Shown piece by piece: positions 3,104-43,495 of a DNA stretch of 64,000 bases (within the stretch, counting starts at the first letter, position 1; each line of letters begins with the position of its first letter). The notes under the pieces are model-generated. The model was not told the origin of the DNA and did no database searches. It saw only the letters and a program-made list of their open reading frames with translations. Position numbers and translations under genes: made by a program. The DNA lies in NCBI GenBank assembly GCA_021650895.1, contig CP091278.1, forward strand, positions 2,137,659 to 2,201,658, read 5' to 3'. Origin of the DNA: Candidatus Jettenia sp. Lineage in GTDB: Bacteria > Planctomycetota > Brocadiia > Brocadiales > Brocadiaceae.

Positions 3104-6100
3104 TTACGCTTTTTCCACCTTTACCAATTCTCCGCCCAGGTATTTTTTCATGAAATCATTCTCGTTGCCAGCGGTATACCCTGTCTTTGCCGGATCCCAC
3201 AATCCCTTACCTCCAATGCCACCATCCTCCGCCTTGGTGATCTTTACCAAGGTCTCTTTTGGCACTGTGTTGATACCATGATTGTCTGCCTCAAAACCAA
3301 AAACAAACTTCATACCAATCTTTGCTTTGTGGAACAGACTATCCAATTGATGCATGGGCATGGACCAATCTCTGGTAATACTCTGTTGTGATCCATAACG
3401 GAAGCTTGACTGATACCCGGTGCCTGCCGATAGCGCCCTTCCATCAGGTCTTGTCTCATGGGCCTTCACCGACCGCTCTGTTGAAATGCACGCAGAGTGC
3501 TTCATCATGGTCACTCCATACGGATATGCCGGATTGTACTTACACCGTAACATCAGACGCGCTATCTTATAGAACGGGTCGCTTGGCTTCCACCCCTCAT
3601 ACGGCCTGTCCGCAGGGTTGGCATCTACATAAACATAATCACCATCATTGATACCTAAATCCTTCGCCGCATCAGGATGCATATGGATTTGATGTTCTCC
3701 CACGCCTGGCATTCTCTTGTCCATCCTGTAGGGGTCACCAAAGTTGTTATTCCAGATAAAGTTCCAGTCCGTTACTGCCCACTGGGAGTGTACCGTATGG
3801 CGGGATTTCGGTGTTACACAATAGAACTTATATCCCTTCTCCCACAAGAAGTTCTTCGTTTTCTTTGTCTCAGCCCATGACTTCTTGATGTTCCTTACCG
3901 TTCTCTCATCCCAATGTTCTGCATTCTCCGGTATTCCATAATCATCCGGACGGATATACGGATTGGTGCTGACGATGACATTCGGAAGATACTGGGTTGC
4001 CTCCGGTCCTTCACGGTGTACGATAAAGTTCTCTCCGTACTCAATAATCTCCGATTCATCATTGTACCCCTGTAACCTTCCTGTCGGTGTATAGAAAGGA
4101 AGGCTCTCATGTACCTGTTCCCAGAATGGATGTCTCGGATAGGTACGGTAGAGCAATAAGGCAACTCCTGGTTCGCCATATTTCCCATTAATGATGTCAA
4201 CAAAACTGTACCCCTTTGTCGTCGTACTGCCATCCAATAATCTCTGGATATAGACCTCTGGTCTTCCCTCAAGGGCAAACTTCCAAACATCATGGAATCT
4301 CATATCTCTGAGGAGTTCTCCAAGCTTGGCTCCCATACCCGCAAGGATCATCACATCATCCTTAGAGTCGTTCACCGGTTTTATGCCACCCTTCCATATC
4401 TGAATGAAGGGATTGGAGCATGAGGTGGTAATCTCATGGGTCTCAAACTCTGCCCAGGAGTTCGCCGGAAATGCAAAATCGGCATATTCAATAGAACCGG
4501 TCATCTCTATATCGTTCGACATGATTTGTTCGATATTGGGATTGACATTCTTCAGCATCTGGTACACATGCTTGGCATTGTTTACCAGGTTTACGTTCGT
4601 AAACCACATGATCTTCGTTGGTGTCGGCATGTGGGTTTTACCCGTAAAGCATTTCCGTCCATACTTTGGGGTATTCACAATTAACGGCCTGTCATTATGA
4701 TTCCAGTACGCCACTTCTTCATCATAGGCACGTCCCTTTACCTTGAGTTCCGTTGCAGGTGCATCGGGATCAAGGTTCGGGTTAAATACATCCTCTGCTA
4801 CCCATCCATAGAATCCGGGACCACTCCACTTTGATGCCTGGAAATTGCCCGCCTTATAGTTACCTGCCCAGGTATGAGAGCCTGAACCAGGATAACCCAC
4901 ATTCCCCGTTAACATCAGAGGTAAATAGGTCGACCTATTCATAAGTGTTGCGTGGAACCAGTGATTGATACCCTCACCGTAATGGATTGCTACCGGTTTA
5001 ATGGTTGCTATATCATGTGCCAGCCTTACGATTAACTCCTTTGGTGAATTCGTCATTTCAACGACACTGTCAATATCGTAATCTTTCAGATGTATTTTAT
5101 ACATCTCGAAGAGCGGCATGACCTCAATTTCCTTGCCATCTACCGTTTTCACCTTGAATACTCCATCGAGAGCCGGGTCAATACCTTTTGCAATAAGCTT
5201 ATCACCAACATCATCACGGGTAATCGCTTTTGGGCTATTTGTCTTTGCGTCCCATACCACAAAGTCTCCGATAATCTCCCTCTGGTCATCATGTAAGCCG
5301 TGAATCTTATAGCTTGCCCCATGTGACATATCCTCTAGTTTATAATCCGGGAAGATATCTTTCGCCTGCAGCCTCTTCAGGGTATCTGTTCGAACGAGTA
5401 AGGGGAAATCGGTAAACTTCTTCACATAATCTGCATCATACAGCTTCTCATCCATGAGGATCTTGGTTATCCCCAGGAACAATGCCGTATCGGTATTACA
5501 CTTGATCGGTATCCAGTAATCTGCCTTTTGAGCAGATGGGCTATATTCGGGGGTAATAACAACCAGCTTCCCACCTCTCTCGAAAACCTGTGTTAACCAG
5601 TGTGCCTCAGGCATCTTATTCTCAATAAGGTTCTTTCCGGTCTGGATTACCAACTTTGAGAACCGTACATCGTTCATGTCTACATCCGATGTCTGCAATC
5701 CATGAGAGAACGGATGTCCAGGGGCCTGATCACCATGCCAGGTATAGTTTGACCAGTTTCTACCACCCAATGCCTTGTCAGGACCAACACCTCTGTTGTG
5801 ACTATCGACCAGGGCAAGGGAATTGTTAAACCGGTACATCCCGTATTTACCAATAACACCCAAGAGACCCATACCACCACGTCCCTTAAAGGTTCGTGTG
5901 CCGGCACCCTTCATCGCATCAACCATCTCTTTAGGATAGCCTTGATCCAGGAGTTTCCGTGCGCCTTCTTCTCCACTGTACTTCTTGGTAATGTGGATAA
6001 TACCCTTTGCAGCATAGGTCCAGGCATCATCCCAGGAGGCCTTTAAGAGTTCATCCTGACCTCTGGCATCAAACATATACTTTGATTTATTTTCCGGTGT

Positions 6101-28934: not shown

Positions 28935-29699
28935 AATTGTTCGTATAATAAATTTTATTATCGGGCTTAATCCGAAAAAAGCTTAAAAACCTTCAAACCT
29001 CATTTCATAAGCCTATCAAAATTTTTACAAAAGTAAATGTCAAACCTGAAAATGCTATGTATAAGAAACTTATCGATTTTGTGCAGAATTTAAGATTGCA
29101 AGAGGAATTGTAAGTAACATGGGCAGGTGCTACTTGTCATTCGAGTACGGTTTTGATTACTTCAATTGTTTCAATCCTCATCCAGTCCGAAGACTGGATG
29201 CTACCTTACTTCCCCCCTCATCCAATGGATCGGTACCTGGTTTCAATCCTCATCCAGTCCGAAGACTGGATGCTACATTGAGCCTTATAGGGTTTTTCAT
29301 CACGGTGATGTTTCAATCCTCATCCAGTCCGAAGACTGGATGCTACAAGGCTGCAGGGACACTTAATCTATCAACAGGGTTTCAATCCTCATCCAGTCCG
29401 AAGACTGGATGCTACTCAGCTCATCGATCTTCCTGGTATACGTACGCTGGTTTCAATCCTCATCCAGTCCGAAGACTGGATGCTACGAACCCGCAACGCC
29501 CTCCGATGGAGGGGTACAGACGTTTCAATCCTCATCCAGTCCGAAGACTGGATGCTACATCGGGAATGAATACCTGAGCGGTGTACCTTATGTTTCAATC
29601 CTCATCCAGTCCGAAGACTGGATGCTACGGATGCCCTCGATGCGGCAGAGGAGTTTGAGAAAGTTTCAATCCTCATCCAGTCCGAAGACTGGATGCTAC

Positions 29700-29735
29700 G
29701 CAAAGAATGGGAGGGAGAGTACGGCACCAGTTGTG
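29700..29735 (-). repeat. Duplicated spacer, copy 1 (spacer 8 from the low end)
   Basis: This 36-base spacer is identical to the one at 31421-31456; its plus strand begins GCAAAGAATGGGAGGGAGAG. Neighbouring spacers on either side differ, so only one unit is shared. Confidence 0.95.
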
Positions 29736-31420
29736 GTTTCAATCCTCATCCAGTCCGAAGACTGGATGCTACATTGCCTCTTGGAGAGAGGGATACGTGT
29801 CTATATCGTTTCAATCCTCATCCAGTCCGAAGACTGGATGCTACGCAGGGAGAAGGTTTTAAGATATATGGCAGATAAAGTTTCAATCCTCATCCAGTCC
29901 GAAGACTGGATGCTACACGCGCCGAGGAGCGATTTGGCAAGACCTGGCAGGTTTCAATCCTCATCCAGTCCGAAGACTGGATGCTACATTGCTGACGCTT
30001 TTCCTGACTATCTGCACCAACGTTTCAATCCTCATCCAGTCCGAAGACTGGATGCTACGGAGTAGAGCCGGGCAATCTGTTTTACCATGTCATGTTTCAA
30101 TCCTCATCCAGTCCGAAGACTGGATGCTACCGGATTGCAAAACAGCACGGCTACACATCCGGCAGGTTTCAATCCTCATCCAGTCCGAAGACTGGATGCT
30201 ACCAAGCAGCAAGGAAGCCATCATGCGCCTGGGCAGGGTTTCAATCCTCATCCAGTCCGAAGACTGGATGCTACTTGTTGTATCCTTCTTGAGAGATGTC
30301 GGCAAGAGTTTCAATCCTCATCCAGTCCGAAGACTGGATGCTACCCAGACAATAGAGCCTTCCAGTGCTTCTCCTGGATGTTTCAATCCTCATCCAGTCC
30401 GAAGACTGGATGCTACAGACAATAACTAATTTCCCGTTGACATCTTTTACCGTTTCAATCCTCATCCAGTCCGAAGACTGGATGCTACGATTGTCGGCGC
30501 CGATTACCTTTATGGTAATATCGGTTTCAATCCTCATCCAGTCCGAAGACTGGATGCTACTTGATAGCCAAGATATTCCAACCCCGCAGGGCGTGGTTTC
30601 AATCCTCATCCAGTCCGAAGACTGGATGCTACGAATACCTTACCTCTACCCGTACCGGCCCGGCAGAGTTTCAATCCTCATCCAGTCCGAAGACTGGATG
30701 CTACCTACGGGGAAGGATCTGAGATTAAACCGATCTCGGAGTTTCAATCCTCATCCAGTCCGAAGACTGGATGCTACATGAGGTACGCCTGCGGACAGAC
30801 ACAGTATACATGTTTCAATCCTCATCCAGTCCGAAGACTGGATGCTACCCACGAAAAAAATCTGTAGAATCAACCAGTGTTTGTTTCAATCCTCATCCAG
30901 TCCGAAGACTGGATGCTACTCACAAAACGTTAACGAAATAACAACCCTGGACAGTTTCAATCCTCATCCAGTCCGAAGACTGGATGCTACTTGCCCACTG
31001 TTTGCATGAGGGTTTCAGGTCGCTGTTTCAATCCTCATCCAGTCCGAAGACTGGATGCTACATACCACAGATTCCCCTCATGTTCTTCATGCTCGAGTTT
31101 CAATCCTCATCCAGTCCGAAGACTGGATGCTACGGGAAGGTTGAGAAGTTTCTTGTTTGGTTTCGGCAGTTTCAATCCTCATCCAGTCCGAAGACTGGAT
31201 GCTACGGACTTTCCAGAGATAAACAACCCGGTTTGTATGGTTTCAATCCTCATCCAGTCCGAAGACTGGATGCTACATCGCCACCCAGTACTCACTATCC
31301 ACATTATCAAGTTTCAATCCTCATCCAGTCCGAAGACTGGATGCTACCGGAGATCCCTTTGTGAGTTCGATGCGTGACTGCCTGTTTCAATCCTCATCCA
31401 GTCCGAAGACTGGATGCTAC

Positions 31421-31456
31421 GCAAAGAATGGGAGGGAGAGTACGGCACCAGTTGTG
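31421..31456 (-). repeat. Duplicated spacer, copy 2 (spacer 32 from the low end)
   Basis: Identical to 29700-29735, 24 repeat units away in the same array. Confidence 0.95.
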
Positions 31457-33144
31457 GTTTCAATCCTCATCCAGTCCGAAGACTGGATGCTACCCCCGTG
31501 CTTCTTAATAGCCACCCGCCGCTGCAGTGTTTCAATCCTCATCCAGTCCGAAGACTGGATGCTACAAAAAGCCATGCCCCAATACTATCCTTACCGAGAG
31601 TTTCAATCCTCATCCAGTCCGAAGACTGGATGCTACGTTTTCTTCGAGTGCGCCTCCGGCATAGAGGGCGTGGTTTCAATCCTCATCCAGTCCGAAGACT
31701 GGATGCTACATAGCCCGGAAGAAGTTGAGCACCTCTTCCTTGGTGTTTCAATCCTCATCCAGTCCGAAGACTGGATGCTACATGCGTAACCCCGCGGTCG
31801 CAAATTACCCGTACAGTTTCAATCCTCATCCAGTCCGAAGACTGGATGCTACTTCTTCATTTTTACCTATCCTTATCCGCAAAAAGGTTTCAATCCTCAT
31901 CCAGTCCGAAGACTGGATGCTACGTCACATACACCCGGTTATCGACAGGGCAATACTCGTTTCAATCCTCATCCAGTCCGAAGACTGGATGCTACGGCCA
32001 ATGCCATAGTGTTGCGCTCAAATCAAATGGCACGTTTCAATCCTCATCCAGTCCGAAGACTGGATGCTACGTGCTTTCAGACCACTTGCCGGGTGGAGCC
32101 AGCACTGGTTTCAATCCTCATCCAGTCCGAAGACTGGATGCTACTTTCTCCCCATATTTTTCCCTTGTTATCTCTTATGTTTCAATCCTCATCCAGTCCG
32201 AAGACTGGATGCTACATTCTGCATCAGGATACCATCTCGATCCCTTGTTGTTTCAATCCTCATCCAGTCCGAAGACTGGATGCTACTTCGATTTTTTGGT
32301 TTTACCATCACGGCCCTTTCTGTTTCAATCCTCATCCAGTCCGAAGACTGGATGCTACTCATCCTTAATGACACCCTCATACGTTAAGTACCGTTTCAAT
32401 CCTCATCCAGTCCGAAGACTGGATGCTACTTTCTTAGCCGTGGCAATGGCTTCGTCTACATAAGTTTCAATCCTCATCCAGTCCGAAGACTGGATGCTAC
32501 GAGTTTACCAAAATGCGGGAGCAGCCATTTGAGGGTTTCAATCCTCATCCAGTCCGAAGACTGGATGCTACACCAGTAAGGTAATTATTTGTTATACTCA
32601 TTTTGTTTCAATCCTCATCCAGTCCGAAGACTGGATGCTACTCGATGTCGGCGGTAGTCCTGATGCCGAGGGTTTTGTTTCAATCCTCATCCAGTCCGAA
32701 GACTGGATGCTACAAACCTGTTCCGGTACCATTGGTGTGGATGGTCTGTTTCAATCCTCATCCAGTCCGAAGACTGGATGCTACCTTGGGTGTAACGGTA
32801 GAAACGTTAGTAGCTGGAGGTTTCAATCCTCATCCAGTCCGAAGACTGGATGCTACTGAGTGTCATTACATCAAATCTTACAAAGCGCAGAGTTTCAATC
32901 CTCATCCAGTCCGAAGACTGGATGCTACCTTGCAGGAATTGGTATTTCAGAGTGGCAACCTGGTTTCAATCCTCATCCAGTCCGAAGACTGGATGCTACA
33001 ACTCCAGTATGAAGACAAACATCAGCTTGTATTACGTTTCAATCCTCATCCAGTCCGAAGACTGGATGCTACTTTAGTTCCTCCTGGCTGGGCAGCAGAT
33101 AGCAAAGGTTTCAATCCTCATCCAGTCCGAAGACTGGATGCTAC

Positions 33145-33322
33145 GCTACTACTTTTTAGGTATTTAAACTCCTGTACTTATGTACTACAATCTGCGAACT
33201 TCCTATTTTTACTTTATAAAAATGCCTCTTTCCCAATATATCACCTCCTTAAAGTATTCAACTTCAATACTATACATAGGTTTGCGAACCTTCACTGTTT
33301 TCGATGCTACAACAGGTTCGCG
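33145..33322 (-). promoter_or_regulatory. CRISPR leader between cas2 and the array
   Basis: A 178-base AT-rich stretch between the cas2 stop and the first repeat on the transcribed strand, the expected place for the crRNA promoter and spacer integration signals. It holds an inverted repeat (GCGAACCT 33284-33291, AGGTTCGC 33314-33321) just after the cas2 stop, which may terminate the cas operon. In its loop, GTTTTCGATGCTAC (33297-33310) looks like the two ends of a repeat with the middle removed. Confidence 0.7.
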
Positions 33323-33613
33323 TTATATAATTAAAGGCTCATCGAAAAATATTGTTTTATTAACACCGTGTTCTTCTACATGTTCATCCCGTGGCTCATG
33401 CAATCTGTAGAATCTAAGGCTATCTTCTTTCACATCAATTTCTTTCAGTAATTTACGCCTTAACGTCTCAAATTGTGCCTGATCTACAGAACATTCAAAT
33501 ACAGACTTTTGAACTCTTTGGCCAAAATCCTTACATGCCTGGGCTACCCTGCGTAATCTTCTACGCCCATCTTTTGTCTCGGTAGTAACATCATAGGTAA
33601 CTATTACCCACAT
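33323..33613 (-). CDS. cas2: CRISPR adaptation protein Cas2
   Basis: A 96-residue ferredoxin-fold protein that forms the Cas1-Cas2 integrase core for spacer acquisition. It begins [20 protein letters not shown], with the conserved Asp of the beta1 strand, and has the [16 protein letters not shown] segment seen in type I-C Cas2. It is the last gene of the cas operon, next to the leader. A ribosome site (AAGGAGGA) precedes the ATG. Confidence 0.95.
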
Positions 33614-33693
33614 GTCTTCCTCCTTAAGTTTCTCAGTTTTTATCGAACGAGAATACTATATTCAAACTCCGTGCCTTTTTCTTCTTTCATTCC

Positions 33694-34725
33694 TTAAGAA
33701 TATAAAATTGGTATATACTCTTCTATATCTCCCCTTAAGTGTCTTGCCAGGAGCCTGGCCTGAATATGAGGAACCAGCCCAAAAGGAATCTTTTCCTCCA
33801 ATAATGAGTGGGTAAATTCATCCTGCTTCCGTTTCTGGTAAGCAACAACAACGGTCTTTCTTCCCCCTTCATTTAAATAAACCGCACCTCCTTCTCTCTC
33901 TTCGAAATCCTTTTTTGTAAGCTGTTTCAGGTTTATGAGAGTAAGGGCAAGTCTATCTGCTAAGACCGAACGTAATTCCTCCATGAGGTCCAATCCGAGA
34001 GAAGGTCTCCCAGGCCTGAGGGCATGTAGAAAACCCATTTGAGGATCTAACCCCACGCCCTCCACTGCCGAGACACAATCATTCAGAAGCAGTGTATAGA
34101 GAAACGATAGTAATGCATTCATCAGATCTTTTGGCGGACGCCGGGTGCGGCCATTCATCATAAATATTTCCCTGTTTTCCTTGACCATTGTATCAAAAAC
34201 CTGAAAATAGGCATTGGCTGATATACCTTCAAAACCTCTGATCTCATCGATGTTACTACTTTTCTTAAGGTGAATGAGTGTATCGGAAAGAATAGTTGCC
34301 GCTTGTCTTAATTGTGTTTCTGTTTCATTGTTCTCCGTCTCTCTGGCACCCCTTAAAAGGATCTGCCGAGAATTCTGTAGTTTTGCGGCTACAATATTTT
34401 TCGCAATCGAGGCGGCTTTCTGTGTATCCCTTACAGCCTCATACTGTGCTTGACGGAGAAGGACATTCCCTGTTATTTTACCAACCACTCTGGCAAGAAA
34501 ACGACCGCTCATATCGAGAAAGACGATGGCCTTGCCATTTTCCGTACAGCGATGCATAAGGAATGGACTCATCATCACATTTCCAATAGTAAATATCGCT
34601 CCCAAATGATGCAATGGCACTTGAAGCTGTGTCTTGCCTTCAACCTCTACCTTCACTGTTTCATGGTCTAAAGTAAGATAAGCACCCTGGGTCATTACAT
34701 AAAGGGTATTCAGAAGCTGCTTCAT
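33694..34725 (-). CDS. cas1: CRISPR integrase Cas1, type I-C
   Basis: Metal-dependent DNA integrase that inserts new spacers at the leader end. Length 343 residues, normal for Cas1c. N-terminal MKQLLNTLYVMTQGAYLTLD and the beta domain VPLHHLGAIFTIGNVMMSPF are typical, and the catalytic helical domain contains GVGLDPQMGFLHALRPGRPS with the conserved His and, a little later, Asp. A good ribosome site (CAGGAGGG) precedes the ATG. In most I-C operons cas1 directly follows cas4; here a HEPN/nucleotidyltransferase pair separates them. Confidence 0.96.
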   Translation of the reverse strand: MKQLLNTLYVMTQGAYLTLDHETVKVEVEGKTQLQVPLHHLGAIFTIGNVMMSPFLMHRCTENGKAIVFLDMSGRFLARVVGKITGNVLLRQAQYEAVRDTQKAASIAKNIVAAKLQNSRQILLRGARETENNETETQLRQAATILSDTLIHLKKSSNIDEIRGFEGISANAYFQVFDTMVKENREIFMMNGRTRRPPKDLMNALLSFLYTLLLNDCVSAVEGVGLDPQMGFLHALRPGRPSLGLDLMEELRSVLADRLALTLINLKQLTKKDFEEREGGAVYLNEGGRKTVVVAYQKRKQDEFTHSLLEEKIPFGLVPHIQARLLARHLRGDIEEYIPILYS

Positions 34726-34752
34726 ATTTCCCTCCTGGTAGTATTTACCGTT

Positions 34753-34785
34753 GCCGAGAACCCAAAGAACGCAAAGAAAACAGAG
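34753..34785 (+). repeat. Purine-rich flank on the cas1 side of the HEPN/MNT module
   Basis: Plus-strand sequence starting CCGAGAACCCAAAGAACGC and continuing AAAGAAAACAGAG. A similar motif, in opposite orientation, lies at 35529-35561, so the two bracket the toxin-antitoxin-like pair. Confidence 0.45.
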
Positions 34786-34808
34786 CTTTCAAATACTATA
34801 CATGTAAC

Positions 34809-35132
34809 TTAAACGATCCGTTCGCCTGTTTCGATTATTTCTTTAATATAAGGGTTGGTTTCGTCAAAATCAGTCCTGGCAAATGAGTGTGGTTCTATTC
34901 TCAAATCCACATCTCGTGTCAACTTCATCAATTGAACATCTTCGTCAAAACCATCAATATCGTCTTTATCCCAAAAGATGGCAAGGTCAATGTCGCTATC
35001 TTTATGATACGTATTTTTCGCATAAGACCCATAGAGATACAAACGCCAGACAGGAATATTATTTTTTTTAAGGTTATCGAGGTACTTTTTGATAATTTGA
35101 TAAATTAACTGCTTATCTTTCTGACGAGCCAT
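34809..35132 (-). CDS. MNT-type nucleotidyltransferase (antitoxin-like)
   Basis: A 107-residue minimal nucleotidyltransferase of the MntA/KNTase group. The active-site pattern is visible as LYGSYAKNTYHKDSDIDLAI (Gly-Ser and two Asp), with a third acidic residue in TRDVDLRIEP. In characterised HEPN/MNT pairs this enzyme adds nucleotides (AMP) to the HEPN partner and silences it. The gene overlaps the end of the HEPN gene by 28 bases, so translation is coupled. Its placement between cas4 and cas1, in cas orientation, means it is expressed with the CRISPR genes; a functional link is inference. Confidence 0.85.
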   Translation of the reverse strand: MARQKDKQLIYQIIKKYLDNLKKNNIPVWRLYLYGSYAKNTYHKDSDIDLAIFWDKDDIDGFDEDVQLMKLTRDVDLRIEPHSFARTDFDETNPYIKEIIETGERIV

Positions 35133-35497
35133 TGTCTAAACTCCTTAATTTTACCGATGTAACATTCGCTAAACTCACGAGTTGCCTTTTTGTAAAATCT
35201 TCTCTTGTAGTCCGGGTATCTTGCTTCCAAATTGAATGTTGTAACTTCTAATAGAAAATTTTTCTGTTCCTCTGAGAGTTCAAGGTTTGCACTTTCAGCA
35301 ATCTTCAATAGATGATGAATTTGCGGGAATTTATTATCAATGTGTTTAACGTAGCAGGCTTTCAACAATTTCTCAAGTACAAGATGTCCAACGAACAATG
35401 CCCAGACGTAATGTCCACTGATGAAAAGGCTCTCCATAGCCTTAAAATCAACCTCGGATGAATCGAGCCAGTACTTTATTATTTCGTCCTTTGTCAT
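35105..35497 (-). CDS. HEPN domain protein (toxin-like partner of the nucleotidyltransferase)
   Basis: A 130-residue all-helical HEPN protein: AMESLFISGHYVWALFVGHL, then VLEKLLKACYVKH, is the conserved helical pair. The RNase motif R-x4-6-H of active HepT toxins is absent; the only arginines lie in the last 35 residues with no following His, so ribonuclease activity is doubtful. The start at 35497 follows GGAG with eight bases spacing; an ATG 20 codons upstream lies inside a repeat-like purine-rich flank. The gene follows cas4 by 96 bases and overlaps the nucleotidyltransferase. Confidence 0.82.
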   Translation of the reverse strand: MTKDEIIKYWLDSSEVDFKAMESLFISGHYVWALFVGHLVLEKLLKACYVKHIDNKFPQIHHLLKIAESANLELSEEQKNFLLEVTTFNLEARYPDYKRRFYKKATREFSECYIGKIKEFRQWLVRKISS

Positions 35498-35528
35498 ATG
35501 GTAATTCTCCGCTGTTTTGTAATCAAAA

Positions 35529-35561
35529 TTTTTCTTCGTGCCTTTCGTGTTCTTCACGGTT
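35529..35561 (-). repeat. Purine-rich flank on the cas4 side of the HEPN/MNT module
   Basis: Minus-strand sequence containing CCGTGAAGAACACGAAAGGC followed by ACGAAGAAAA. It resembles the motif at 34753-34785 in inverted orientation and the degenerate purine-rich repeats dispersed in many bacterial genomes. Confidence 0.45.
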
Positions 35562-35593
35562 AAAATCTTTTTGGTTGTGATTATCCTGCCATG

Positions 35594-36217
35594 TTATTCC
35601 ACAACAAACAACTTTTTCATTAAACTGTGGTATCTAGTCTTATTGTGTATCGCTTCAGGCAGACACGATTCCTTAAGTGAACAGTCCCTGCACCGTTTGT
35701 CATTAACAGGGGGTGGCACTAACTTTTCTACCATCATCTTGTGAATAGCAGAGGTAACCTCTTCCACCTGATTTCGCATGGTTTCTGTAAAGACAACCTC
35801 TTTTCTTTCTCTGGATGCATGCCAGAAGATAGCACCTTTCTCAACCGTTACCTTAAGCATCTCTTCAAGACAGATAGCCTGTGCACAAACCTGCAGGCTT
35901 TCATGATGACCTGCCCTATGTTTCCCTGATTTGTATTCCACAGGATAAGGAACGTTTCCATGGAATTCTACCATATCGGCTTTACCCACAAGTCCAAGTC
36001 GCTCAGACCATATCGGCAATGCCCGCTCACATCGGACAGTCTCTTTGAGACGAGATGATTCAATATCAACATTTTCATGTACCGCCCTGCCGCGCAGGGT
36101 ATACAAGTTTTCATCAAAGGTCTGCTCTATATGGATAAGGGCGCACTGGCGCGGGCAGTAGCTGTAATGCTCCAGGGCAGAAACCATGATAGGTTCAATT
36201 TTTTCATGAGAAGACAT
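35594..36217 (-). CDS. cas4: CRISPR-associated exonuclease Cas4
   Basis: RecB-type nuclease that trims prespacers and selects PAM-bearing ends during adaptation. Length 207 residues. Iron-sulfur cysteines are visible near the N-terminus (YCPRQCALIHIEQ) and C-terminus (CRDCSLKESC), and the nuclease motif VPYPVEYKSGKH in the middle. The start at 36217 is preceded by AAAGGAGG; an ATG 11 codons upstream overlaps the previous gene and lacks this support. Encoded 29 bases after the four-helix-bundle gene rather than next to cas7. Confidence 0.94.
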   Translation of the reverse strand: MSSHEKIEPIMVSALEHYSYCPRQCALIHIEQTFDENLYTLRGRAVHENVDIESSRLKETVRCERALPIWSERLGLVGKADMVEFHGNVPYPVEYKSGKHRAGHHESLQVCAQAICLEEMLKVTVEKGAIFWHASRERKEVVFTETMRNQVEEVTSAIHKMMVEKLVPPPVNDKRCRDCSLKESCLPEAIHNKTRYHSLMKKLFVVE

Positions 36218-36246
36218 GAGAGCCTCCTTTCCGTCTTCTGAATAGT

Positions 36247-36825
36247 TCAAAACTTCTTATCTCTATTGCGCATCTGTGATCGTGTACGATAGAGCCTTTC
36301 CGTAAATCCACCATTTTTCAGGAACTCCTTTTCCAATGCCCGCAACTGCTGGTCGAGTAGGTAGTTTGTCTGATGGATCAAGCAGACTAAGGTATTTGCA
36401 GCTACTTCAGGAGGCGAAGCCTCAATATAAGTCTTATAAGTCAAATAAGACCTATTTTCCAGATAACAGAGTTTCCTGACTTCTTTAGCACTTGGATTGT
36501 CTTTTGACCAGAGCGACAATCCCTTCTGGCGCAGATAATCCTGAAAATCAAGAAGCAGTTCTTCAAGGCTTGCCCGCGCCACGCCAATGAGCTTAAGTTC
36601 GGTTTTTTTGGATGTGCCAGAGGCCATACTGCCTTCGGCAATGTTCTGTTTACCGCTGCGTGCTGCCTGCACCATTTGATCATGGGTACGGGAACGGTGG
36701 TCGATGAAGCGGTTGCAGAACACTGTTGTAGCATCAAAGACAATCTCCGCCATTTGATAAGACTGTAGTTCCCAATACCCACCGTGCGGCGGTATGAGCT
36801 GCGGTGATTCATTTTGATCAGTCAT
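36247..36825 (-). CDS. Four-helix-bundle (S23/avd-like) protein inserted in the cas operon
   Basis: A 192-residue helical protein of the four-helix-bundle group related to S23 intervening-sequence and avd proteins. Typical features are an N-terminal PPHGGYWELQSYQMAEIVFD, the QMVQAARSGKQNIAEGSMAS motif, and the long helix ELKLIGVARASLEELLLDF. Members often bind nucleic acid or structured RNA; some assist retroelements. No reverse transcriptase or template repeat is seen here, so a diversity-generating retroelement is not indicated. The gene is in cas orientation, 19 bases after cas7 and 29 before cas4, hence probably co-transcribed. Its role in CRISPR is unknown. Confidence 0.78.
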   Translation of the reverse strand: MTDQNESPQLIPPHGGYWELQSYQMAEIVFDATTVFCNRFIDHRSRTHDQMVQAARSGKQNIAEGSMASGTSKKTELKLIGVARASLEELLLDFQDYLRQKGLSLWSKDNPSAKEVRKLCYLENRSYLTYKTYIEASPPEVAANTLVCLIHQTNYLLDQQLRALEKEFLKNGGFTERLYRTRSQMRNRDKKF

Positions 36826-36844
36826 TTGGAATTATCTCTTGTTT

Positions 36845-37696
36845 TTAAAATACATTTCCTTCCGGCCACACTTTCATTTCGATTCCGGATGGGAGTTTCT
36901 CATTATCGACAGTAATCGTATAATCTTCTTTCTTCCGCTGTGGTTCTGCGTTTTTTGTCACTTTCACACGATCAAATAACCTGCCTGATAGTTCATTCCC
37001 CAAGTGACTCGCATGTTTGAATATAACCAACTTTCTTGAATTCATCTCCCCACGAGCTGCTGCCCGGTCATGCTCGAAGGCATTGATTAATGCTTTCCAT
37101 AATAATTTCAGATCGTCATCAGAGAACTTTGTTTTTCTGGCATCAATAGCTGATATAAAACCATGCATCCTATAAAGTGCATAGGGCACTGTAGATTTCC
37201 GTCCAAACGTTGAAGCATACTCCCTGCTTTCCTGTTTTTTAGCATCCTCTTCTGTAGTTACAGCACAGCGTGTTATAGAGTGTTCCGCTTGATATATGCG
37301 GTCTTCTGAACGGGCAAAGGTAAATTGCACCGGTCCCCGAACTGTTCCAGCACCTTTATTCCCTGTCGATAACACTGCGCCGAATGTCCTTATATCGAAA
37401 TACTGTGCACATAATCCATCCTGACGCTGCTGTATATTCGCACCAGAAGCAGCATCGATAATCTTATTCAAAATCTGCTCTTGCCTGATAAATATATCGA
37501 AAGGAGGTCTAAGCTCTTTTTCTAACATGACATAATTCCTGACTTTCCTTTTAATGCACACATCGGTAACCAAACCGTGCTGATCTTCAGCATCAGCCCT
37601 AGGCAAGTTTACCTGATCAGGATCGCCGTTAGGATTGCCGTCTTTCACATCAAACAGAAACACAAAATCATACCGATTCTTTATTGCTTCAATCAT
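36845..37696 (-). CDS. cas7: Type I-C Cascade backbone protein Cas7 (Csd2)
   Basis: RAMP protein that polymerises along the crRNA spacer to form the Cascade backbone. The 283-residue sequence starts with the diagnostic FVFLFDVKDGNPNGDPDQVN and contains FGAVLSTGNKGAGTVRGPVQ, both hallmarks of Csd2. It begins three bases after the cas8c stop. No anomalies. Confidence 0.97.
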   Translation of the reverse strand: MIEAIKNRYDFVFLFDVKDGNPNGDPDQVNLPRADAEDQHGLVTDVCIKRKVRNYVMLEKELRPPFDIFIRQEQILNKIIDAASGANIQQRQDGLCAQYFDIRTFGAVLSTGNKGAGTVRGPVQFTFARSEDRIYQAEHSITRCAVTTEEDAKKQESREYASTFGRKSTVPYALYRMHGFISAIDARKTKFSDDDLKLLWKALINAFEHDRAAARGEMNSRKLVIFKHASHLGNELSGRLFDRVKVTKNAEPQRKKEDYTITVDNEKLPSGIEMKVWPEGNVF

Positions 37697-37699
37697 GTC

Positions 37700-39478
37700 T
37701 TATTCCTCCCCTGTTTTATCTTGAGTTTTTGAGATAAATTGTTTTTGCCTCTGATGATAATAACCAATAGCGAACTGACCTTGCTGCTCCAATGAAAAAG
37801 TGGCCGGAAAGCTGCGAATATCTATATCCCTACACAATTCCTGAAGTTTTTTATCAAGCATAATCGCAAGGCCGGGTTTTTCACTTTTCAGTTTTGTGAA
37901 ATGCTTTGAATTCAGGTTAAACAACCGTCCAAATGCGGATGCAGGAGAGGTCATGGCATAGGTAAAATATCTCTCCCGTATTCCGGCGTTTACATTCCCT
38001 AATGCGGCATACTGAATGCCCTCTAGTTTTGCAAAAATCTGCCCGCAAATATAGGCTACCGGTTTATTGTCTTGCGCAATATTTTCTGTGATCATAAAAC
38101 TGCCTCCTTTCCTATGACGATTTAATATCAGTTTTATCAAAGCAGCCTTGTCAGCAGTAACCCCATCCAAACGTGACCGATGAAGCACTTTTGTTAACAT
38201 CCATAAGGGTGGCGGAGTGTTTTTCAGTGCTGCGTTCCATAAATATGTGGCAACTCTCGCCAGTGATGTATCGTCTTTGTCATAACTACCGTCGCTGTTT
38301 TTTCTCTGACAGCATTTTGCCAGATCATACAGCCTGGCATAATGTGTTTGGGTCTTTTTTAAGTCCGCATTATATTCATCAATTGCAATATCCTGAAACC
38401 ACTGAGCTATTGATTTTCGAAAATCAAACAAACTGGTCTCAATCCAGTCCCGTACCGCAATCCTCGCCGCAGAGCCGGAAAGCGTACATGAATAAAACTG
38501 GTCAGATTCAAGATAACGACTGTCTCTTTCGGTGCCTGATGCCACAGATTCAATAAGCCTTGCAACATCAGACGGACTAGGCGCTTCGAGATAATCTATC
38601 TCATCCAATTTTTCATTTTTGCGAGTCCAGAACACCATAGCAGTATCTGAGCCAAAATTTTTACGATTAGTATATTTGAAAATCTTTTTTTCTTTCCCAT
38701 TTTTACTTCTTTCAACAATTTCATTTCCGGATGATAAAAGCCAATTTAGCCCCTCAACATACGTTTTAGCACAATTAGTACATATCGATGAGTTGTTGTT
38801 TCCTTTTAAATCATACGACTCAAAGGCGTTTTCATTATACGAAACCAATGCACAACCACTTGATTGCCCGTCAGGAACTTTTTTGATCATGCCGTGCGGT
38901 ATGTCTTCAACCGGATAATCTGTTTTGCCACAAACAGAACAGTTCTTCTGTAATTTAGCTAAGCTTTCTTTTTGTACAGTCTCATACTTTTCTATAATCT
39001 TTCGTAAAACAGCCGGTTTTTCATGAATACGATGACCTTCGGACTGAATTCGAAAACCAATATTGCCTTTTCTGTTTTTCTCATCAGGGATGGCAATTTC
39101 AAATGCTTTTAATGCTTTATCTACTCCATTAACTTTATTCTGCTTATAAAATGATATAATTGGCTTCAATTCACTCAATTCTTGGTATTCAGTTAATTTC
39201 TCTAGAAATAATTCATGTTTCTTTTTTGATACTTCTCCACCATAGCAAAGCACTTCCTCAGCTTTATCGAGTAGTAATCGGGCTTTCCCCTTCTTTGCGG
39301 TTATAGCCTCGGATTTAGTTGTTTTTTTCTCAAACAACTCAAACTTCTGAAAACAACCATCTTGAGTTATAACTATCTCCATAGAGATAGGCTCGTCTCT
39401 AATCGCATCATGGATCCATTCATTATCAACTCTTTCTGCTCGAAGCGTTTTTCCTAAATAGCTTAGCTCCTTGATCAT
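37700..39478 (-). CDS. cas8c: Type I-C Cascade large subunit Cas8c (Csd1)
   Basis: Large subunit that recognises the PAM and recruits Cas3; in I-C an internal start usually also yields Cas11. The 592-residue length is normal. The zinc-binding cysteines are visible as CSVCGKTDYP and, about 50 residues on, CTNCAKTYVEGLNW. Central VFWTRKNEK and C-terminal FGRLFNLNSKHFTKL segments also fit Csd1. The start overlaps the cas5 stop by four bases (ATGA). I did not identify the internal Cas11 start with confidence. Confidence 0.96.
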   Translation of the reverse strand: MIKELSYLGKTLRAERVDNEWIHDAIRDEPISMEIVITQDGCFQKFELFEKKTTKSEAITAKKGKARLLLDKAEEVLCYGGEVSKKKHELFLEKLTEYQELSELKPIISFYKQNKVNGVDKALKAFEIAIPDEKNRKGNIGFRIQSEGHRIHEKPAVLRKIIEKYETVQKESLAKLQKNCSVCGKTDYPVEDIPHGMIKKVPDGQSSGCALVSYNENAFESYDLKGNNNSSICTNCAKTYVEGLNWLLSSGNEIVERSKNGKEKKIFKYTNRKNFGSDTAMVFWTRKNEKLDEIDYLEAPSPSDVARLIESVASGTERDSRYLESDQFYSCTLSGSAARIAVRDWIETSLFDFRKSIAQWFQDIAIDEYNADLKKTQTHYARLYDLAKCCQRKNSDGSYDKDDTSLARVATYLWNAALKNTPPPLWMLTKVLHRSRLDGVTADKAALIKLILNRHRKGGSFMITENIAQDNKPVAYICGQIFAKLEGIQYAALGNVNAGIRERYFTYAMTSPASAFGRLFNLNSKHFTKLKSEKPGLAIMLDKKLQELCRDIDIRSFPATFSLEQQGQFAIGYYHQRQKQFISKTQDKTGEE

Positions 39479-40209
39479 AGCGATGCCTCCTTTTCTTCTT
39501 GTTGATTGAACTCATAGATTGCAGAAGAAACCTCACTGTCAATTGCTGGCTGAAAATGGCTCGACCGCATCATTTTGTCGTTCTCAGGAACTTCACAGTT
39601 CAAAACACCGTTACGTATCGCAACATCATGGAAAAATAAAGGCTCCGGTTTTCCTTTTTCATCATAAAATATATCGAAAAGCATACTTCCAATAGGAATG
39701 GTTTCCCTGATCGGTTGTTCAGTTCCGTCCGGTTCCACAAACTCAGCCGAAAACTCACGGACACCAAGGTACGGCCGGTGCCAGCATTGTCCTTTTTTTA
39801 CGCGGCGAGGAAACATTCCTTCGTTTCCAGCACTCATTCCAACGTATTTTTCAAGTCTGGTTTTATCGGATATTTGCGTCATGTAAATTGAAGCTTCAAT
39901 GACATATGCTACATTCCTTAAGATCACACTATTTCTCTGAGCGCGCTTTTCTTCAATCATAATGGGACTGCGACCTTGCTTTGAATTAATCTCATTCCGC
40001 TTAATCGTACAAAAGCGTATCGGGTTCAAGATCAGTATTCGTCTGACATACCACTGAAATTCTGGCTTCCACAGAATCGAGTCAAGAATGCCCCGCGCCG
40101 CCGATGGCGTCATGCAGGGATACGTCATGCGTTCAACCTTCAAATCTGGCCTTGTAAAACACGCGAAATCGCCCTTTACCTTAACTCTTACTATTCGATC
40201 ATCGAGCAT
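39475..40209 (-). CDS. cas5: Type I-C crRNA endonuclease Cas5d
   Basis: In type I-C, which lacks Cas6, Cas5d cuts the pre-crRNA at the 3' base of the repeat hairpin and stays bound to the 5' handle. The 244-residue protein begins MLDDRIVRVKVKGDFACFTR and contains the typical MTYPCMTPSAARGILDSILW motif with a candidate catalytic Tyr. Strong ribosome site AGGAGG upstream of the ATG. The predicted cut would leave an 11-base handle AGGATTGAAAC, as in the characterised Bacillus halodurans system. Confidence 0.96.
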   Translation of the reverse strand: MLDDRIVRVKVKGDFACFTRPDLKVERMTYPCMTPSAARGILDSILWKPEFQWYVRRILILNPIRFCTIKRNEINSKQGRSPIMIEEKRAQRNSVILRNVAYVIEASIYMTQISDKTRLEKYVGMSAGNEGMFPRRVKKGQCWHRPYLGVREFSAEFVEPDGTEQPIRETIPIGSMLFDIFYDEKGKPEPLFFHDVAIRNGVLNCEVPENDKMMRSSHFQPAIDSEVSSAIYEFNQQEEKEASL

Positions 40210-40224
40210 GCATATACCTCCTGA

Positions 40225-42402
40225 TTATACGACCAATTTATCCGCCTCTATTGGCATGACTGAAATACCTGTCTGAGAGTCATAGTTCCCGTACCACACC
40301 ATGAACCCCTGATCCATTGTTTTGCACATCTGTCTATTCTGGAAAATGAAATGTTCATAGACTTGAACCGTATACGCTTGCATTCTCCTATAATCATCCC
40401 TTGATAAAAATTCCTTATATTCAAGCGAATGTAGCAACTGCCTGCTCTCATTGCTGTAGTTGTAGATATACAGTCCTTTGGTAATATTCTGTATTATGCG
40501 ATAGCCGTCGTTTACCGTTTCAAAATCAAACCTCTCGCGTCCTTCATTGATATTATATTTATCGGGATCAACGTAGAGCTGTATTACCTGGGCATAGTAT
40601 TCATTGAATATCGTATGCCCATGTAATTGATCGATGTTTCGCTTAATTAGATCTTCCGCATGTCCTGCACAAGCAGCATAAGTCTTGTCCGGCATACCAC
40701 CGTCCTGCAATTTAAATAAAAATACTTTTCCGCCTAACTCGCCTAATTTACCCTCACGATTACAACGACCTGCAGACTGAATGACTGCCTCAAGCGGCGC
40801 TATAGCGCGAAACATAACAGGGAAGTCGAAATCAACACCCGCTTCAATAAGCTGCGTAGAGACTACCAATATTTTCTTTTCTGCTTCCAGATCATCCCTG
40901 ATATTCTTAATCACCGCTTTTCGATGAGAAGGACACATTGCCGTTGATAAATGATATTTCTTTTCCCAATCCCCAAGATTCTTGGTGCAATTATAGAACT
41001 CCAATGCTGCTTTTTTTGTATTGAATATGACCAGTGCGGCATCGCCTGCTCGTATTACAACTTCAAGAAGGCCGTTGTAATCAATCGGCTTTAAATCATT
41101 CAATAAGCGATACTCAACACGCTTTGTTTTTTCGTAAAGTACCGTGGGGTCATCTATGAGGGGAGAAATCGTATTTATGCCGTCAAACCCTTGTCTTTTT
41201 TCAAAGGCAGGTTGTGTTGCCGTGCAGAATAGAAACGATGTGTTCATAACGGCTTGAACATCTTTAAGTATCTGTACTGTCGGCAATATGACTTCTTTTG
41301 GAATTGCCTGAACCTCATCAAATATCACCACAGCCTCAGCTATGTTATGAATCTTGCGACACTGGGACGGTCTGTTGCTGAATAGTGATTCAAAGAACTG
41401 AACAGTTGTTGTGACAATGATAGGGTAATCCCAATTTTCACACGCCAGTCTTTTACGCTTTTCAATAGCAGAACAGCTTTCTGCCACATCCCGACTGTTA
41501 CGATCGACTTCATTGTAGCCAGAATGATGCTCAAGCACCCATTCTTCACCAAAAATGGTTTTTAAAGTCTGGGCAGTCTGGTCTATGATGTTTATGTATG
41601 GAAGGACTATTATTATTCGTTTTAAATCGTTCTTTTTCGCATGGCGTAATGCCCATGCCATAGATGTAAGTGTCTTACCCATTCCAGTCGGTAGGGTTAA
41701 CGAATAAAATCCGCAGGGCATATCCGTTTTCTGAAGTGCTTGATTGCGGGTGTTGTTGCGCAATTGATTGATTTCACCCTCTTTGGGTTTTTTGGAAAAT
41801 TCCTTTTCTAATTTGTCTATCATATCATCTACTGGCAAGGGAACTCCGATGCGCATCTTAAATGTATCTTGCTCAAAGTGCTCTTCCGTAGAAAGCCAAT
41901 CGCCATCCGTTAAAGCGCTAAAAAGGCATCTTGTAAAAACTTCGCGCCGAAATGGTTCAGTAATAGACAACAAATCGGGTGGTTTGATTTCCGCCTTATT
42001 GACCCCTGTGTCATTGAGAAAGGTTCTTGTTATATCTTCAAATTCAGAAACTTCACCCCGAAGGTAAGGCTCCGTATCGCTCTTCCAGGCTGATTTATCT
42101 GGTAATCCCTTATGATGTCCGTCAATCGCAATGGATGCCTCAAGAACTTTAAGAATTCTCGCATACCCGGCACCCCATGAGGCATGAGGAACACTACCTC
42201 GTTTTCCACCATTTTCTAGATACCTTTGAAATGCAAGCTGATACTTGCCAAGGTCATGTAATAAACCTGCCATCTTGAAAATCGGTTTATAGGTTTCGTG
42301 ACACGCAAAGGATTCTGCAAATTTTGCGGTTTGATGCAGGTGTTTTGACAAACCATGTTTCTCGTTACGATTATTTTCTGAATGCGCATAATACCCAGGC
42401 AT
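40225..42402 (-). CDS. cas3: CRISPR nuclease-helicase Cas3
   Basis: Degrades target DNA after Cascade binding. 725 residues. The N-terminal HD nuclease domain has YYAHSENNRNEKHG and MAGLLHDLGKYQLAFQ; the helicase has Walker A TLPTGMGKTLTSM, motif II FDEVQAIPKE (DEVQ rather than the commoner DEVH), motif III TATQP and motif VI QSAGRCNREGK. The start at 42402 is the second of two adjacent ATGs and has GGAGG six bases upstream; a GTG six codons earlier lacks one. First gene of the operon. Its start abuts a relic of another cas3 reading frame. Confidence 0.95.
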   Translation of the reverse strand: MPGYYAHSENNRNEKHGLSKHLHQTAKFAESFACHETYKPIFKMAGLLHDLGKYQLAFQRYLENGGKRGSVPHASWGAGYARILKVLEASIAIDGHHKGLPDKSAWKSDTEPYLRGEVSEFEDITRTFLNDTGVNKAEIKPPDLLSITEPFRREVFTRCLFSALTDGDWLSTEEHFEQDTFKMRIGVPLPVDDMIDKLEKEFSKKPKEGEINQLRNNTRNQALQKTDMPCGFYSLTLPTGMGKTLTSMAWALRHAKKNDLKRIIIVLPYINIIDQTAQTLKTIFGEEWVLEHHSGYNEVDRNSRDVAESCSAIEKRKRLACENWDYPIIVTTTVQFFESLFSNRPSQCRKIHNIAEAVVIFDEVQAIPKEVILPTVQILKDVQAVMNTSFLFCTATQPAFEKRQGFDGINTISPLIDDPTVLYEKTKRVEYRLLNDLKPIDYNGLLEVVIRAGDAALVIFNTKKAALEFYNCTKNLGDWEKKYHLSTAMCPSHRKAVIKNIRDDLEAEKKILVVSTQLIEAGVDFDFPVMFRAIAPLEAVIQSAGRCNREGKLGELGGKVFLFKLQDGGMPDKTYAACAGHAEDLIKRNIDQLHGHTIFNEYYAQVIQLYVDPDKYNINEGRERFDFETVNDGYRIIQNITKGLYIYNYSNESRQLLHSLEYKEFLSRDDYRRMQAYTVQVYEHFIFQNRQMCKTMDQGFMVWYGNYDSQTGISVMPIEADKLVV

Positions 42403-42561
42403 CATATTCCTCCATGCCACAGCCCTGCCAAAAAAGCCAAGTCTCCAGCACTAAATTTATTAGCAAATTTTTTCGATAGTCTGACAACCATCTTTCGGAT
42501 GGTCACTGAGTATATACCATTGGCCTTCTGAATTAGCGGAGTGGGTATAGAATTCTTCCAT
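42402..42561 (-). pseudogene. Relic of the 5' end of a second cas3 gene (HD domain start)
   Basis: From an ATG at 42561 the frame reads MEEFYTHSANSEGQWYILSD, closely resembling the start of type I Cas3 HD domains, and ends at a TAA near 42460. Shifted by one base after an A6 run it continues FANKFSAGDLAFLAGLWH, which aligns with the segment of the intact cas3 ending at its HD motif (MAGLLHD), then closes at a TGA at 42402. So the fragment covers about 50 residues up to the HD histidine and breaks off where the present operon begins. It is too divergent to be a recent copy of the adjacent cas3. Confidence 0.75.
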
Positions 42562-42685
42562 GATAAATAATTTCTTAATTATTTAATCAATATAGAAAGA
42601 AATGCTTATTCTGCGGTAACTTGTGCGGGTCATAATAGCACATTGTGTATTTGCGTCAACAGAAATTTCTCGTTTTGAAAAACAC

Positions 42686-43495
42686 TTAAAACTGTTCGCT
42701 CTGTCGTGCCGCAATCATAATCTTTGCACAGGCTTCTGCATCGGATGCGGCATCGTGGTGTTTCAAGGGGATTCCAAGGAATGTACATACGGTGGGCAGA
42801 TTTGCCCGACGAAGTTTCCATATCTTGCGGGCAAGCTTCACTGTACACTGAAAGGGAAGTGCCGGTGGTAATACATTAGCATTCCGACAGCATGCCATCA
42901 GGACAGACCGGTCAAAACTCGCATTATGCGCAGCTATAAATTCAGCACCTTCAAGCTTTTTATTTATCTGCGGCCACAGTTCATGAAACTGCGGTTCGTT
43001 GGCAACGTGTTTCCATGATATGCCATGAAGATAGGTAAATTCAAAAGTACGCCGTGGTGGACGAATGAGGAATTGCGCCCGATCAATAATCTGATCGCCA
43101 AGGACTTTGACAAGTGCGATAGAACAGGCGCTGTCACGCCCGTAGTCTGCGGTCTCAAAATCAATCGCAACAAAACAACCATGCAGATTCAGATTTTCTA
43201 CATTCTTAAATTGTACTGGCAACACTGATCTCTGTAAACTCGGATACGAATTTTGCTGTGATAAAATGGTTCTCGTTGGAAATACATTATCTGAAAGAAT
43301 ACGGTTAATATTCTGAGTCTCTTCTCGTAATAATAACTCAATGATATCCGTACAGTTTCCTTTATCTGCTATACCATAATATTCACACATTGCTTTAGCT
43401 TCCAACTCGCTTACGTATCGAAGGAACGTTTTTGGTGGTATATCAGGTAAACTCTGTATAAGCTGCACACATCTTCTGCTTGCTACGGAGGTCAA
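42686..43495 (-). CDS. DEDDh 3'-5' exonuclease (DnaQ-like) next to the cas operon
   Basis: A 269-residue protein with an exonuclease domain from about residue 105: Exo I FVAIDFETADYG, Exo II HNASFDRSVLMACC and Exo III HDAASDAEACAKI give the Asp-Glu-Asp-Asp plus His set. The N-terminal 100 residues (KTFLRYVSELEAKAM, NCTDIIELLLREE) are not recognised. The start is uncertain: the frame opens with TTG at 43495 and has no ribosome site. In another frame an ATG at 43531 reads MVLDFKLKNIDLRSKQKM, so a frameshift near 43475 may have separated the true start. Same strand as cas3 and upstream of the relic. DnaQ-type exonucleases can trim prespacers, so a CRISPR role is possible. Confidence 0.78.
   Translation of the reverse strand: MTSVASRRCVQLIQSLPDIPPKTFLRYVSELEAKAMCEYYGIADKGNCTDIIELLLREETQNINRILSDNVFPTRTILSQQNSYPSLQRSVLPVQFKNVENLNLHGCFVAIDFETADYGRDSACSIALVKVLGDQIIDRAQFLIRPPRRTFEFTYLHGISWKHVANEPQFHELWPQINKKLEGAEFIAAHNASFDRSVLMACCRNANVLPPALPFQCTVKLARKIWKLRRANLPTVCTFLGIPLKHHDAASDAEACAKIMIAARQSEQF

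Follow-up and report, generated by a model that had tools for sequence, protein, structure and literature searches.

We suggest that the sequence directly ahead of cas3 in a CRISPR-Cas operon of a Candidatus Jettenia species is very probably the scar left when CRISPR effector genes were exchanged in place. The locus lies in the window (the whole 64,000-nucleotide stretch of DNA analysed here), within the single-contig 3.82-Mb genome G000, which encodes hydrazine synthase and is therefore that of an anammox bacterium. It is a mosaic with two legible junctions, a decayed stub of an older cas3, and no remainder of that gene elsewhere in the genome.

The cas3 stub and its decay

The present operon is a complete type I-C system with cas3, cas5c, cas8c, cas7, cas4, cas1, cas2 (recognised by reading only) and a CRISPR array (Table 1). 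Ahead of it, on the minus strand from 42561, the stub reads MEEFYTHSANSEGQWYILSDHPKD, the start of a Cas3, and past a one-base shift it reads VVRLSKKFANKFSAGDLAFLAGLWH. The original prediction had seen in 42402-42561 two overlapping minus-strand frames that code for the beginning of a Cas3 HD domain, as far as the HD histidine, and this is confirmed. The frame change had been placed wrongly, at an A6 run; alignment with relatives puts it at a single extra base at 42488-42492, with AAAGATGGTTGTC at 42483-42495 against AAAGA-GGTTGCC or AAAGA-AGTTGCC. The extent needs trimming as well: the interval is cas3-derived down to 42414, but 42413-42402, reading GGAGGAATATGA, already belongs to the present cas3, whose ribosome-binding site and start make up the sequence from 42413 onward (GGAGGAATATGATG). 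The start of this gene is probably ATG 42405 or 42402 and not GTG 42420.

Table 1. Features of the type I-C locus in the window, with assignments to resident and incoming DNA as proposed in the text
Feature	Position	Strand	Remarks
Upstream region of old resident cas3	42562-42700	-	~90% identity to sister species G001 and G002
Stub: codons 1-49 of displaced resident ('A-type') type I-C cas3	42414-42561	-	1-nt insertion inside; ends GLWH
One-base insertion shifting stub frame	42488-42492	-	Alignment with relatives
Left junction: start of presumed incoming DNA, GGAGG ribosome-binding site and ATG of present cas3	42402-42413	-	Stub-frame stop overlaps start
cas3 (type I-C), intact, presumed incoming	40225-42405	-	
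cas5c, presumed incoming	39475-40209	-	TIGR01876 above cut-off
cas8c/csd1, presumed incoming	37700-39478	-	TIGR01863 above cut-off
cas7/csd2, presumed incoming	36845-37696	-	TIGR02589 above cut-off
Four-helix-bundle protein gene, right end of swapped cassette	36247-36825	-	TIGR04258/TIGR02436; between cas7 and cas4
Right scar: donor cas4's first six codons (LNYSED) ahead of resident cas4	36233-36250	-	Read from DNA
cas4, resident	35594-36217	-	TIGR00372 above cut-off; ribosome-binding site GGAAAGGAGG at 36223-36232
cas1, resident	33694-34725	-	
cas2 (putative), resident	33323-33613	-	By sequence and position
CRISPR array, resident	29167-33145		56 repeats of 37 nt, GTTTCAATCCTCATCCAGTCCGAAGACTGGATGCTAC

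Joined across the shift, the 49-residue peptide shares 61%, 63% and 59% identity with the intact Cas3 proteins of G012, G021 and G022, respectively (Z 26-30 above shuffles), and 63% with the stub of the sister species G001, as against 29% with the present Cas3 directly behind it. The fragment is thus the 5' end of a second, divergent cas3, as had been claimed, and G012, G021 and G022 hold intact loci in which the matching cas3 runs on past the HD motif. A tblastn search of 98 related genomes with the peptide found relatives at E-values down to 9e-14. Searched by itself, the peptide was too short and too worn for curated models: neither Pfam nor NCBIfam gave a match, and no PDB chain of relevance was hit. 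Profile A1, made from relatives of the stub, does match the solved Cas3 chains 8zns (E 6e-17) and 8g9u (E 6e-16). Identity to relatives and this profile together place the stub at the N-terminus of a type I-C Cas3 HD domain. It ends at residue 49 and is frameshifted, with no open frame for HD nuclease and helicase; it is a pseudogene fragment, not a cas3 gene.

The same identities bear on the idea that the present cas3 underwent a partial tandem duplication at its 5' end, which would account for a Cas3 N-terminus beginning both copies. This is refuted, with next to nothing left in its favour, by the 29% identity to the present Cas3 against 59-63% to another clade, and the DNA upstream of the stub is that of the sister species. 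An assembly artefact or chimera is similarly far-fetched: although a contig of G032, from another genus, carries an identical stub and cas3, which suggests mis-binning there, the window lies within a single-contig genome, and independent genomes show the same architecture with different sequences. The contig in question (G032:C180, locus L042, 9.8 kb) matches the window at 100% identity across the stub and the stretch of cas3 that was compared, and is probably mis-binned.

In addition to the broken frame, the stub carries substitutions at positions that are invariant in the alignment of its relatives (e.g. the Leu of HL replaced by Pro). Over this stretch dN/dS was 0.12-0.14 between intact A-type genes and 0.28-0.51 between stubs, at ~50 codons per pair. 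Judged by these substitutions, the stub is a former gene under relaxed constraint. Decay rather than conservation also speaks against a conserved noncoding regulatory interval, the alternative to the coding interpretation raised at the outset. A related possibility is that the stub has been kept as a leader, either a short cistron or an RNA, which would couple translation to the cas operon or regulate it, its stop overlapping the next start. Many stubs do have their stop codon on the next start or only a few bases away from it (the window, G018, G029, G009, G001 and G061), and several have open frames. However, a stop near a random join is not improbable, stub dN/dS is relaxed, and the stubs of G000, G017 (twice), G030, G032:C10, G018:C45 and G004, each ahead of an intact-looking cas3, carry frameshifts or stops or are gutted. 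We therefore consider such a retained function very unlikely. The stub is a fossil with no sign of function seen. The pattern of stubs in general may also owe something to selection, with a start stub delivering ribosomes to the gene behind it.

Mosaic ancestry of the operon

Effector and adaptation genes of the locus have different nearest relatives, as in an exchange. Cas3, cas5c, cas8c and cas7 are 83-90% identical to those of G007:C67 and 68-82% to those of G009, and at most about half identical to those of the other compared loci (G001, G012 and G022). Cas4, in contrast, is 91% identical to that of the sister species G001 and only 44% to that of G009, and cas1 is ~85% identical to that of G012. 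At the DNA level, G001 matches the window at ~94% over 33300-36196 and at 80-95% over 42414-42700, with no match between; it has the same chromosomal neighbours and a different effector set at that site. The matching flanks with nothing in common between them point to ~6.2 kb (36233-42413, comprising cas3-cas5c-cas8c-cas7, the four-helix gene and six cas4 codons) as foreign DNA.

At the right edge of this segment, TTGAACTATTCAGAAGAC represents codons 1-6 of a donor-type cas4 (cf. LNYSEDD in G017); immediately behind it come GGAAAGGAGG and then the resident cas4's start. Both edges of the cassette therefore share one form, namely the 5' stub of an interrupted gene and then the ribosome-binding site of an intact one. 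No direct donor was found; the closest cassette shows 82% DNA identity and lies on a contig that stops before cas4. G007:C67 shares this join and the kind of cassette behind it, and the join may therefore predate the event in this genome. The four-helix-bundle gene is 78-89% identical among many related loci, whose effector genes are mostly only ~30-50% identical, and it may be the right-hand homology arm of exchanges. Between cas4 and cas1 (34809-35557) there are two small genes that, judged by sequence alone, resemble a HEPN/nucleotidyltransferase toxin-antitoxin pair, and nucleotidyltransferase-like ORFs occupy the same place in G001 and G028.

We propose the following course of events. An ancestor would have carried an A-type I-C operon at this site, like those intact in G012, G021 and G022, and incoming DNA with a divergent I-C set (cas3-cas5c-cas8c-cas7-four-helix gene) would have recombined into it. 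The left join would have formed after codon 49 of the resident cas3, immediately ahead of the ribosome-binding site of the donor cas3, and the right join after codon 6 of the donor cas4, immediately ahead of the ribosome-binding site of the resident cas4. The upstream region and start stub would have been kept from the resident on one side, and, on the other, cas4-cas1-cas2 with the array. Whatever else belonged to the old effector set would have been lost, and the stub would have decayed afterwards. The direction of transfer in this scheme is inferred, and the old promoter would now drive the new operon. A promoter-like match lies upstream of the stub at 42632-42659, one such match being expected by chance.

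A donor origin of the 3' half of the stub was ruled out, as it is 80% identical to G001 against 75% to G007:C67, and the stub is resident-like along its whole length. This places the window's own crossover at or next to the HD motif. The original prediction, which had suggested that a previous cas system was replaced here, is supported and largely right. It holds for the effector genes, and not for cas4-cas1-cas2 and the array, which are the resident's and unswapped; it is further refined by the second, matching scar in cas4 and by the recurrence of stubs across the whole order, which makes this more than a one-off.

Recurrent stubs and their breakpoints

Profile A1 was run on genomes of the order (62) and of the phylum (392), and on fetched loci in six frames. 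Of 28 I-C-like loci in the order, ~24 have a 5' stub of cas3 immediately ahead of their first cas gene (G000, G001, G002, G004, two in G007, G009, G011, G013, G016, two each in G017 and G018, G019, G024, G028, G029, G030, G032:C10, G043, G046, G048 and G061); the loci of G012, G021, G022 and G053 have none. Elsewhere in the phylum, stubs occur in ~3 of 30 loci (G406, G321 and G200), and in other phyla in two of 23, both from Verrucomicrobia (L048 and L059); these 23 loci were fetched by a pattern containing the HD motif and are hence left out of the breakpoint count. Two or three consecutive cas3 starts are found in G024, G018:C15 and G007:C61, and such stacked starts are a record of successive systems at one locus.

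Stubs also stand ahead of operons that begin with cas5 (L048, L059, L100, L103 and L104), all of them divergent I-C-like operons in the order cas5-cas8-cas7(-cas3); in L100 the Cas8 has no NCBIfam match, and Cas5 and Cas7 score under the I-C cut-offs. G002, a third species of the genus, has at the same chromosomal site (L026, 3231-3704) a stub fused to a late piece of a Cas3 helicase, the I-C operon being gone. In G024, the end of cas3 is separated from cas5 by a transposase-like ORF of 357 aa on the opposite strand (L024, oriented coordinates 4849-5922).

The last retained codon of cas3 is 40 in G016, 41 in G200, 42 in G032:C10, 46 in G321, 47 in G019, 49 in G000, G007:C67 and G011 and, listed apart, in G013, 52 in G024 and G030, 53 in G046, 54 in G048, 57 in G018:C15, G029 and G017 (twice) and, each listed apart, in G043 and G061, 62 in G028, G018:C45 and G007:C61, and 112 in G001. 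Codons 40-62, around the HD motif GLWHDLGK, thereby hold 14 of the ~15-16 junction events counted as distinct, and shared ancestry or repeated horizontal spread could make the independent events fewer than this. If breaks were uniform over codons 30-240, 14 of 15 would fall there with a chance of ~5e-13, or near 3e-12 when G406 (break near codon 100) is added, figures that come from a crude null, an event list drawn up by eye, a codon window picked after the data were seen and a count that stubs shorter than ~30 codons would escape.

The HD motif is the best-conserved DNA within the first 160 codons of cas3, but not across the whole gene; homology alone therefore fails to explain the cluster, unless the left arm of the donor was short. 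One explanation would be that the motif is a target site, at which a site-specific recombinase, a homing nuclease or a guide-RNA-directed element cuts and inserts effector cassettes. Agreeing with this are the ~14 of 15-16 distinct breaks within codons 40-62, and the fact that the cassettes behind the breaks begin with different cas3 types or with cas5. Against it, no recombinase gene, terminal repeat or target duplication was seen at the junctions of the window, the exact break varies by codons among events, and the far part of the target gene, which an insertion would leave on its other side, is found neither there nor elsewhere in the genome. Spacers match cas3 only at chance level, and array spacers directed at cas3 were rejected as a cause of the break. 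We give little credence to a target site of this kind, and the join was more probably made by recombination than by a mobile element.

Chimeric stubs are of interest here. Those of G018:C45 and G007:C61 are A-type in their first third and D-type in their second part, and the bases behind their HD motif recur in G028, where the entire stub body is A-type. A common join is seen in the window and in G007:C67, yet the DNA upstream of each stub is that of its own host lineage. The join therefore moves with the cassette and the stub body stays the host's, as expected for a crossover inside the stub near the HD motif. Our preferred reading of the break cluster is a crossover at the first conserved block of cas3 DNA, the HD motif, with donors that already bore stubs, and we favour homologous or short-homology recombination with such donors as the means by which stubs spread. 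More tentatively, and with the balance somewhat against it, the stretch of type I-C cas3 that leads up to the HD motif, its first 40-62 codons, might form a recurrent recombination port, in which a cassette-borne stub serves as a portable left homology arm into any I-C locus and leaves a new stub each time, stacked stubs recording the successive systems.

Relation to known exchanges and remnants

Exchange of effector modules around a fixed adaptation module has been argued from trees and gene order (Koonin and Makarova 2019, PMC6452270), and the present case is alike in that effector genes are replaced while cas4/cas1/cas2 and the array are kept. It differs from the account given in the parts of that article consulted, where scars of this sort find no mention, in that the two joins can be read base by base, a stub lies on either side, and the break in cas3 recurs. 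In type I-E systems of Salmonella and Shigella, 5' cas3 remnants persist after deletion of cas genes (PMC3356390, PMC2886076). This is similar to what is seen here, a 5' piece of cas3 outlasting the other cas genes. In those bacteria, however, the cas system has been lost and remnants come in various sizes, 1.4-2.6 kb for most of those shown (PMC3356390, PMC2886076), whereas here a new effector set follows directly and the remnants are mostly 40-62 codons long. Beyond these enterobacterial remnants, the open-access literature searched yielded no account of a break hotspot or of cas3 stubs that mark an exchange; in-place effector exchange is already known, and it is for the base-level scars and the recurrent breakpoint that we could not find a precedent there.

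The stub is a real and ordinary kind of fossil that opens onto an unusual, testable regularity. Effector-module exchange is usually inferred from trees, and here the joins are legible base by base; stacked stubs record which systems a locus held earlier, and because the breaks cluster at one motif, the mechanism is open to test. Compared with a typical type I-C operon, the window has the extra four-helix gene between cas7 and cas4.

Cas5c is the usual repeat endonuclease of type I-C systems. The closest complete relative of the cassette, in G009, adjoins repeats of the GTTTCAATCCACGCCCCCG type, strongly unlike the 37-nt repeat of the window. The swap thus pairs a presumably foreign Cas5c with a resident repeat unlike that of its nearest complete relative, a natural test of the portability of effector modules.
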